A program made the translations under genes and the position numbers. A stretch of 64,000 bases of DNA from Datnioides undecimradiatus (lineage: Eukaryota; Chordata; Actinopteri; Lobotiformes; Datnioididae), in assembly GCA_008933995.1 (NCBI GenBank), contig WARS01000026.1, forward strand, positions 5,904,501 to 5,968,500, written 5' to 3'. The notes under the pieces are model-generated. The model was given only the letters and a program-made list of their open reading frames with translations, did not search any database and was not told the DNA's origin. This document shows positions 39,773 to 48,670 of this stretch, piece by piece (the stretch's first letter is position 1; every line of letters begins with the position of its first letter).

Positions 39773-39784
39773 CTATCGGGTCAC
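39773..39784 (-). CDS. tafa3: TAFA terminal coding exon: VTR and stop codon
   Basis: On the minus strand a strong acceptor (pyrimidine tract over 39787-39811 ending CTGTTTCAG, AG at 39785-39786) is followed by GTG ACC CGA TAG. Added in phase 0 after ...KTTK at 43424, this gives the carboxyl terminus KVTR, as I remember for TAFA3 and TAFA4. A 12-nt coding segment is too short to identify by content. The call rests on the acceptor, the phase match, the correct C-terminus and position 3.6 kb downstream in the right orientation. The rest of the exon is 3' UTR. Confidence 0.85.
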   Translation of the reverse strand: MTR

Positions 39785-45700: not shown

Positions 45701-48670
45701 TACCACAGTGAATAACCAGGTGATTTACATGTTTACCAGCTACATACGTAGGTAATTGTCATTCCAAAGTAGTTACTACATACTTACTCAAAATTGGCCT
45801 GAATTCAGTGACATCATCCCAGGGGATTACTGACACTTTCTGAGAGAGGTACCTTTTCTCTCAGAAGGTTTCTCACTAATCAGATGTTGCAGATGGGAGC
45901 CATTTTGTAAAGAGAACCCCCAGCATACAAAGCCCAGGCAGACTTTCATCAAGTAATCATCATGTGGTCTGTCAGAAATCGTGTCAGCATCAATATTGAT
46001 GTAATGCCCGCCAGCAGTTTAAGAGTTTCCCAGTTAATAAATCTTTTCCAAGTGGAAAAAGCTGTGAGTGCTATTTTGACAGATATTCATTTCTTACTAA
46101 TAATAACACATGATAAATTAACACATAATGAACCACTGATAAAAAACAAGACTCAAATGTGTTTGATGACCAGTAGTGCTCAAACACGGGTAACTTTATT
46201 GATTCACCTGGTGAGTTACTGAATTCTTAAAATCTGTTTTGTGCTCTGTGCTACGGTGTTGTGTTGACTGTATATACCTCAGCTGTAGGGTTAGCGTGAA
46301 ATCCAGAGCGAGGAACAACAGAGCTGCAGAGACTGCAGTCACTGATTTCATCAAGTGCCACTCTTCATAGCTACAGGGGGTTCAGTATACTGATTTTGTG
46401 GACACAGGAACAGTAGCCTGGGGGATTTTCTGGGTATATGGGTACATTTTCCAGTTTAGAATTGTCAGCACTACTGCAAAACAAAAGCTCATTTATGTGT
46501 AAAAGCCCAGATAAACATTTGGGTCTACAGAATCAACTTTTCATTCATTGTCAACAATGCAGCTTTAGAAAGATAACACTTTCTGCAGATTGGAATATTT
46601 GCTATAAAGATTCATGTTGGGAGTCCTTTTATGTTCACATAACATTGACTGAAGTGCTCAATATAATAGCAGGAGCACCTGAAATCTTCTTCATGGAGCT
46701 TTTTCCCTATTCTCCCTCTCAGTTAAGATGCAATTATGTTATATTAGAATTTCTTATTTTCATTTTTTATGTGTATCATTGGAATTATTTGCTTGATTGC
46801 TTTGCTGTTCAGAATAGTTCAGATTTCTGCTTCTCTTACCTTTCATGGGTAATTTGGGTAATAGCAGGAGAAGGCATTTCATTATTTTTGAATTGCTTCT
46901 ATGTGCAATGTAACCTTACATCCTGCTGTCTATCATTGTAGTAATTCCCCTAAATTCATCACAAACATGAAATCGACAGTGTGTGTTTATAATGTATCAG
47001 GCTCCTAAAGTTTCTTGTTTGTCTAATTATGATACATGCACCTCCATTCACTGGATATATACAGTAATTAGCTGCCAGCACACAAAAATGCAACTAAAAG
47101 AGCACTGACATCTATGTCTTCACTGTCAAATCAAACTTAAATGTAGGCATACATCAACTTTTAGATCAGACTTCAGACAAGAGCAAAGCATACATTGAAA
47201 ATCAGGACCATCAAGAGTGTGTCAACTGTATTTTAGTCAGAAGAGACACTTATGAGAGGGAATTTGTCATTTGTAGTTTTTGAGATTGATCGTACTGTTA
47301 GATTTGGCAGATAAGGCTCTGCCCTTTAACGGAGCTCTCAAAGAATTCAAGGACTGTCCAGGCTCAGGGTAGGATAAGTCCTGTCCCTCTAACAAACACA
47401 CTCATACGTGTACTTTAGATTTACTTAAATGAGGAACACCAAGAAATATAGCATAATGCGAGAGAGAGAAGTTAGGGTGGTGGAGGGAGCATATCAAAGG
47501 ATTTGTAGTGAAAAGAACTGGGTTATAATGGCCGTGCTGTGCACCTGCATGAATATGAATGGATGTTACAAGTCAGCAGGTAGTCAAAGAGCTTAAGACA
47601 TGGGCAGTGATACATTGGATGATTTTTTTAGCCGGCCCTGAAGGAGTTTTGTTTTTCACTAAAATGCTGCTGACTTCTGTTGTTTACCTCAGTTCCTGGG
47701 TCAGTGTCATCCCCCATGAATTTGGTATTTTCAGAAACAGTGTGTGGGCACAGGTCCCTGTAAATAAAGCAACTCATCATGGCTTTAATAACCAGGAGGA
47801 GTTAAGGGGCCGTTGTAGTCCATCAGAGCTGCTTGTCAGATGATGTAAATGCTCAGGAGCCGACACAGAGCAACGACTGACTCTTTTGATCACAGATGTG
47901 GTCGGAGAACATCTCCTATGTGCCACTACTAAGGGAACAAAACCTGATCCTCGCTTACTTTGCCATCACTTACTCTCATCAACATGTCCTTGTGTTGACT
48001 GCTGCTCATAATAACTTTACTGTCAGCAAACACATAACCTGCTTAAATTAGAATTGAAATATATGGTAATGTCAGCATACCACTGCTCATTTTGAGGACT
48101 GTCAAAGCTGTGCAAATGTTGTAAACATTAGTCAGAGTGTGCATGTTGTGTTTGAAGCAGGCAGCTATGTGACTGTGGAATGTAGCAAAGGAGAGGGCTG
48201 GGCTTCCAACACACACCCCATGAAATAAAGAGTGGCTTGGAGAGATGTTTTGTTTTGTTTTTTTAGATTTTTTTTTTTTTTTTTTTTTTTTTTGTATTTC
48301 CTTGTGTGGGTCCTTATGTGTATGTAACTTACCTCAGACTTTTGTGTTGTGTTACAGTTAATCTTAAAATAAATAAGACACCAACAAATAGACACCAACT
48401 GGCTAATGCAAGCACAACTTTAGTGGTTTGGGTTAATTTACCCTGTACCACTTTGTCATACATTTAAACATCAGCATGTGATCAGCATGAAAACATTCAA
48501 AAACAAACAGTGGTACAAACCATCAACACAGGAGGGCATGGCCCGGGTGGTGCCTGCAACCTGTCCAGGGAAGCACGAACATTTGACAGTCTGAGATCTC
48601 TCCTCAATCTTGTTCTTGTTGCAGCAGCGATGGGCAGCGATCACCTCACACGTCCCTGCCTTCACATGCA
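39773..48670 (-). CDS. tafa3: TAFA/FAM19A chemokine-like secreted protein, 3' three coding exons (partial, spliced)
   Basis: TAFA proteins are small secreted, mostly neural, cysteine-rich ligands. Three minus-strand exons (48521-48670, 43424-43548, 39773-39784) join into about 95 residues: the entire mature cysteine domain, lacking the signal peptide. The ten cysteines follow the family spacing exactly: C-X7-CC, X13 to C-X-C, X14 to C, X11 to C, X4 to C, X5 to C, X10 to C. Landmarks are [62 protein letters not shown] and the end VTR-stop. Intron phases agree (1 then 0). Paralogue: AAHRCC, VDASIV, WWCQM, DLTGWSC and the KVTR end match remembered TAFA3 better than TAFA2 (ALHRCC, DRKGWSC, RVTH) or TAFA4 (AVHRCC, VEASIV). 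The family call is near certain and the paralogue is inference. Exon-to-exon distances are 4972 and 3639 bp. Confidence 0.93.
40510..40770. repeat. Diverged short tandem array, about 34-bp period
   Basis: Recurring block: GCCTG, then an A/T-rich spacer, then CCTNYAGG, then a GTTCATCC-like end. Examples are GGGCCTGTTCCCATTGCCTT with CAGGCATCCACTCC (from 40549), TGTGCCTGATCAAAGAGTCT with GCAGGCG (from 40583), CCCTTTAGGTGTTCATCC (40687-40704), TGCCTGTTTAAATATGCCTG with TAGGTGG (from 40708), and TGTGCCCAATTAGAAAGC (from 40742). Units are irregular and worn. Confidence 0.5.
42772..42806. repeat. (AC)17 microsatellite in the last TAFA intron
   Basis: Perfect AC tract. A GT-type tract lies about 240 bp to the right. 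Confidence 0.95.
43044..43090. repeat. Interrupted (TG)n tract in the last TAFA intron
   Basis: TG repeats broken by three TCTG interruptions. It lies 334 bp downstream (minus strand) of the penultimate exon. Confidence 0.92.
43424..43548 (-). CDS. tafa3: TAFA penultimate coding exon (KWWC second half of cysteine domain)
   Basis: This 125-nt exon has a phase-1 start and a phase-0 end. Its first two bases (CC) complete the Ala codon opened by the G at 48521, giving VD-A-SIV as in the family. It then reads [32 protein letters not shown] and TGNKVKTTK, and supplies the last four cysteines. On the minus strand the acceptor tract is TCTATCTTCCTCCAG, with AG at 43549-43550. The donor is AAG|gttggt with GT at 43422-43423, another non-consensus +3. 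The residues before GEEC are Met-Asp, where the paralogues I remember have Leu-Glu or Leu-Pro. The plus-strand frame over this interval is an antisense shadow. Confidence 0.95.
43985..44340 (-). pseudogene. LINE reverse-transcriptase fragment (C-terminal part), decayed
   Basis: The minus-strand frame reads [19 protein letters not shown], then [16 protein letters not shown] and [16 protein letters not shown], then [14 protein letters not shown] and AAVCKETHQ. This is the familiar region just after the polymerase core of fish LINE ORF2 proteins (WC...LN-SKTKEM-IDFRK, then FRYLG--IDDKLTF). After a stop the same family pattern resumes briefly as SFNVEN. No catalytic YxDD segment or endonuclease is present, so it is a dead fragment. 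It lies in a TAFA intron, in the same orientation as the gene. The clade is uncertain (CR1/L2/Rex-like). Confidence 0.82.
48268..48293. repeat. Poly(T) run of 26 in a TAFA intron
   Basis: 26 uninterrupted T, preceded by TTTTGTTTTGTTTTTTTAGA. On the gene strand it is a poly(A) run about 230 bp after the exon 48521-48670. It could mark an old retro-insertion, but no element body is recognised beside it. Confidence 0.95.
48521..48670 (-). CDS. tafa3: TAFA central coding exon (first half of cysteine domain)
   Basis: This 150-nt exon contributes two bases of a split codon, 49 whole codons (HVKAGTCEV through PSCVD) and one base of the next. It carries six of the ten cysteines, including the CC pair and the CSC motif. 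On the minus strand the acceptor is a pyrimidine-rich tract ending CTTTTTCACAG with AG at 48671-48672. The donor is GATG|gtttgt with GT at 48519-48520. The entry codon is split as N|TG, so the residue before His is Val, Leu or Met; Val would fit TAFA3. Without splicing, the frame runs only another dozen or so residues into the intron before a stop. The donor is weaker than consensus (T at +3). Confidence 0.95.

Follow-up and report, generated by a model that had tools for sequence, protein, structure and literature searches.

A predicted four-exon TAFA gene, probably tafa3, in a fish genome that appears to keep two copies

We find an intact-looking TAFA gene on the minus strand of the 64,000-nucleotide stretch of DNA analysed here (the window; C469:5904501-5968500), with three coding exons inside the window and a predicted fourth upstream of it. 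We put the probability at about 0.9 that the gene represents teleost tafa3 (fam19a3) in intact form, one of two copies from the fish whole-genome duplication, with a predicted secreted precursor of 128 amino acids. Both the name and the duplication history are what we infer from sequence comparison. With its first coding exon 28.6 kb away and a last one of 12 bases, the prediction is a model that automatic annotation can truncate. The comparisons also indicate that both fish copies have been kept, nearly identical in protein.

The three coding exons within the window lie on the minus strand at 48521-48670 (exon A, 150 coding nt), 43424-43548 (exon B, 125 nt) and 39773-39784 (12 nt). All splice sites are canonical, with AG acceptors and GT donors throughout and a pyrimidine-rich stretch before the acceptors. 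Exon A has the acceptor ...TTTTTCACAG/TGCATG and the donor GATG/GTTTGT, exon B has CTTCCTCCAG/CCTCC and AAAG/GTTGG, and the last exon begins at CCTGTTTCAG/GTGACCCGATAG (slashes mark exon boundaries). Splicing of these exons is predicted from these signals. Joined, they form a single frame of 94 residues and a stop. Exon A supplies residues 35-83 of the 128-residue precursor, preceded by the two closing bases of codon 34 and followed by the first base of codon 84; exon B supplies the remainder of that codon and then SIVAQKWWC...KVKTTK; and the last stretch, V-T-R-stop, runs unbroken into the presumed 3' untranslated region. A candidate polyadenylation signal, the first AATAAA past the stop, lies 375 nt downstream on the same strand (39392-39397), and is one of 17 A(A/T)TAAA motifs in 6 kb.

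A phase 1 intron of 4,972 nt (43549-48520) separates exons A and B, and a phase 0 intron of 3,639 nt (39785-43423) precedes the last exon, both on the minus strand; upstream of exon A one more intron, also in phase 1, is predicted. The first-pass annotation had placed the three pieces exactly, and its phases (1, 0), its proper C-terminus (VTR and stop) and its estimate of about 8.6 kb for the last two introns (8,611 nt as computed) are borne out by the joined frame. Its description of the surroundings as apparently gene-free DNA does not hold, since the DNA between the exons consists of the gene's own introns. The three exons that it described are confirmed at the sequence level, but a further coding exon, predicted outside the window, was overlooked.

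The 12-nt last exon is the sole match to a pattern of acceptor, VT(R/H) and stop across the 43.4 kb that follow exon B, and with a pyrimidine filter the pattern gave 0 matches in 60 Markov resamples. The pattern also has two matches over the 24.7 kb beyond exon B of the closest paralogue (on contig C315, described below), so the resamples may understate chance; these matches make two candidates for the terminal micro-exon of that gene, one at 17.8 kb that reads VTR and one at 9.9 kb that reads VTH. For three other TAFA genes, a search reaching 4.0-4.7 kb from exon B found no terminal micro-exon. Of the whole predicted gene model, this 12-base end of the window gene is the least secure.

The predicted missing exon, which carries a putative signal peptide, lies at C469:5981767-5981866 (77267-77366 in window-style numbering), 28.6 kb upstream of exon A. 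The search for it took in an additional 50 kb upstream of the window. A first filter, which asked for an ATG exon with a signal-like sequence and a plausible donor in phase 1, returned many candidates, mostly microsatellite translations, among which this exon had the best donor score. It was also the sole match on both strands of 65.3 kb to a joint acceptor, signal and donor filter, which was written after the candidate had been seen. Candidates inside the window were weak; even in the best (51118-51049), which was set aside, both the donor and the signal sequence were poor. The upstream exon opens TTTCTGGCAG/A-ATG and ends ACAG/GTAGGT in phase 1 (CTGGCAG/A ATG CGA GAA ... CAC ACA G/GTAGGT), and the split codon G/TG joins it to exon A as a valine. 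As predicted, it encodes 33 N-terminal residues with the hydrophobic stretch LLLSLCLASL, and 48671-64000 of the window is part of a 28,596-nt phase 1 intron on the minus strand whose signal-peptide exon is beyond the window edge. The predicted full coding sequence has four coding exons and 387 nt including the stop, for 128 residues, a length near the 133 amino acids given for human TAFA3 in a passage of PMC9194834.

Membership of the TAFA family is firm on sequence grounds. The joined window protein matches PF12020 (TAFA) along the entire profile (positions 1-90 of 90) at E=1.3e-45, scoring 154.2 bits where the cut-off is 25, so that the three exons do make up the complete domain claimed at first pass. 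Its ten cysteines have the spacing CX7CCX13CXCX14CX11CX4CX5CX10C, again as first noted. This is the spacing given for TAFA1-4 in passages of PMC9194834; TAFA5 lacks the CC pair. The remaining tblastn matches of the TAFA protein within the window are weak (E >= 2.2), and a PDB sequence search with the window protein gave 0 matches.

We searched the whole genome (581,297,614 bases in 497 contigs) for TAFA exons and obtained 20 matches, ten to exon A and ten to exon B, which suggests about ten TAFA genes as a lower bound. Copies of TAFA1, TAFA4, KCND and, on our reading, TAFA3 occur in pairs, a pattern that would fit a teleost genome. The protein closest to the window gene is encoded on contig C315 at about 2.4247-2.4258 Mb, and 88 of 91 residues are identical (48/49 in exon A, 40/42 in exon B). 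A putative signal exon of like design, MRERDLQSMCRRALLLTVCMVSLWGQLTSASSHRSHI, precedes its exon A by about 26.8 kb; it stands directly after an AG and ends in phase 1. This exon was found after the one upstream of the window, and we count it in support of the latter. Both precursors start with MRER and read HRSH(T/I)VHVKAGTC at the junction. The predicted first coding intron is about 27-29 kb in both copies, so its length does not set the window copy apart. The A-B intron is longer in the window gene (4,972 nt) than in the C315 copy (853 nt). When 114 kb of C469 was compared with 80 kb of C315 at the DNA level, both TAFA exons matched and 11 other rows were returned, several at microsatellites. 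At the protein level, window frames matched the C315 locus at the two TAFA exons (with opposite-strand shadows) and, more weakly, over two short stretches around 58.2-58.4 and 61.7-61.9 kb.

Two irregularities were seen among the other TAFA genes. A TAFA5-like gene on C334 has its two exons on opposite strands, at 19460021-19460173 (+) and 19528510-19528674 (-). They are 68 kb apart near the end of the contig, an arrangement suggestive of a local inversion or an assembly error. The two convergent tafa1/tafa4 pairs are unequal, with about 59 kb between outer exons at C315:15874376-15933364 vs 14 kb at C496:6465195-6479636.

The gene neighbourhood may point to TAFA3. Neighbour matches were named only at the family level (MCT, CAPZA, KCND, MAGI). 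On C315 the order is MCT family (2.293M), TAFA (2.425M) and CAPZA (2.558M), with PHTF (1.01M), ST7 (3.95M) and KCND (4.10M) farther out. This is the order of human SLC16A1 (MCT1), TAFA3 and CAPZA1, and KCND3 is a neighbour of the TAFA3 locus as well. On C469 the window gene (5.95M) shares its contig with CAPZA (7.03M), KCND (7.23M) and MAGI (9.06M), all markers being at least 1.1 Mb from it. The two strongest of eight KCND-type matches fall on C315 and C469. No MCT relative lies close to the window gene, and the only C469 matches, at 4.02-4.03M, are weak. PHTF was found on C315 only and not on C469, and the CAPZA fragments do not make the two contigs the closest pair. C334 has a CAPZA gene beside ST7, presumably the CAPZA2/ST7 region. 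A PP2C search gave no match on C469 or C315, so PPM1J, a TAFA3 neighbour, was not seen and this marker is uninformative. These gaps in the neighbourhood, the CAPZA result and the distances on C469 count against a tafa3 pair. On balance, C315 and C469 resemble the two TAFA3 regions that the fish duplication would have left, the C469 side having lost its MCT gene or had it moved elsewhere. Separately, MAGI matches at C471:6015125-6015277 and C472:6012218-6012370 have equal scores and almost the same offset, and may represent two haplotypes of a single chromosome that the assembly has not merged.

A duplication of fish FAM19A3 together with MCT1 is already in print, in a passage of PMC3319611. 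The window gene is an ordinary one, with no new biology beyond the gene model and the retention of both copies. In a limited literature search, no fish copies were found under the names tafa3a/tafa3b or fam19a3a/fam19a3b.

Protein trees were built from ten fish rows, and from fourteen rows that add human TAFA1-4 entered by hand; all rows have 91 residues and are nearly identical. The tree of fish paralogues proposed at first pass does set TAFA1 and TAFA5 apart, but the window gene sits on an open fork, and the C315 copy falls with TAFA2. The human TAFA3 row is on an open fork too in the tree of fourteen rows, where a group at 95/93 (starred) joins the C315 copy, a tafa2-like gene on C470 and the human TAFA2 row and does not include the window gene; the tree of ten rows groups the C315 and C470 genes at 84/95. 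It is on this evidence that one could hold the window gene to be of TAFA2 type, or the window and C315 genes not to be a tafa3 pair. Identities lean the same way, with 80/91 to the C470 gene and 79/91 to the human TAFA2 row vs 76/91 to the human TAFA3 row, and TAFA2/3 form a single group of weak to modest support in the portion of PMC10792014 available to us. We nevertheless consider this improbable. The C470 gene is a separate tafa2-like gene with its own MCT-family gene and joins the human TAFA2 row at 96/94, while the window gene is nearest to the C315 copy, shares the design of its N-terminal exon with it, and that copy has neighbours of the kind seen at TAFA3. The assignment to TAFA3 favoured by the first-pass annotation is supported by the closest paralogue, the N-terminal exon and the gene neighbours (CAPZA and KCND, with MCT at C315), on which the tafa3 call rests, and not by the tree.

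A decaying or silenced copy is a still fainter prospect for the window gene, although it has no MCT neighbour. Its splice sites and frame are all intact, and it looks like an intact and ordinary gene. Moreover, of the 91 codons compared with the C315 copy, 45 differ only silently and 3 change the residue (dN 0.02), which indicates that both copies are constrained; dS was not computable, as expected if saturated. The two genes are, as far as these codon comparisons go, old duplicates under strong purifying selection. Finally, a chance assembly of open frames is next to impossible, however short the exons and with only 12 coding bases in the last, given the joined match, the E=1.6e-21 of the exon A frame alone, and the recurrence of the exon A/B pair and the signal exon in the C315 copy.

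The reading as tafa3 leaves a likeness to the tafa4 gene on C315 to be considered. Window exon B (43424-43548) and exon B of that gene are identical at 41/42 residues and 87% of bases, and the DNA match hardly passes the exon edges. In the window gene, silent sites resemble those of C315 tafa4 more than those of its presumed partner, the C315 tafa3 copy, a point against the tafa3 pairing. Among 21 TAFA1-4 pairs, the window gene and C315 tafa4 have the largest fraction of identical codons in both exons (27/43 and 23/36; resampling p 0.002 and 0.005, uncorrected and for the best of 21 pairs). The longest identical run in exon B, 32 bases, is likewise the longest of 21 pairs; in exon A the run reaches just 12 bases, and several other pairs exceed it. 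Since the likeness was picked as the strongest among 21 pairs, it is likely to reflect chance or shared codon preference. An exchange of coding sequence between window tafa3 and C315 tafa4 by gene conversion seems doubtful.

Little else was recognized in the window. The Pfam scan took in 30 of 82 stop-free window frames passing a length and complexity filter, with the longest (41313-41921) left out, and among these 30 only TAFA scored above the curated cut-off; sub-threshold matches were MoaF_C (E=0.041) and GULLO2-like (E=0.0051). The window may thus hold other genes. Nothing in the window reached the Rfam gathering score. The A-B intron contains a 136-aa open frame on the minus strand (44027-44434) that has no Pfam match and one other, diverged copy in a genome DNA search; it looks like a LINE reverse-transcriptase fragment.

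By analogy with its family, the predicted precursor, a 33-residue N-terminal exon product with a hydrophobic signal stretch followed by a ten-cysteine TAFA domain ending in VTR, would enter the neuronal secretory pathway, fold with up to five disulphides and act as a secreted neurokine. Its likeliest partner activity would be disulphide-linked cis binding to the neurexin stalk (Cys-loop) during biosynthesis, which would tune the heparan-sulphate modification of neurexins; signalling through GPCRs is another role that may apply. Neurexin or receptor binding is reported for TAFA1-4 in passages of PMC9812575 and PMC9194834. TAFA3 itself is little described; PMC9194834 mentions the pars tuberalis and microglia.

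The window gene can be set against three known relatives. It shares with TAFA3/FAM19A3 the ten-cysteine domain, the predicted signal peptide and a length of about 130 amino acids, and its VTR end matches the human TAFA3 C-terminus. The loci may be alike too, with CAPZA and KCND on the window contig and the MCT-family neighbour at the C315 partner copy. Mammalian TAFA3, including the human gene, is compact. This genome differs in having two copies, and the window copy differs in its predicted 28.6-kb first coding intron and in having no MCT gene close by. TAFA2/FAM19A2 is similar in protein, as the identity to the C470 gene shows, but that gene lies apart beside an MCT-family gene of its own and its exon A begins HVRTGTCEVVAL, unlike exon A of the window. 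TAFA4/FAM19A4 is close in exon B, yet exon A ends in SCVE there and in SCVD in the window gene, and the tafa4 genes are convergent with tafa1 genes.
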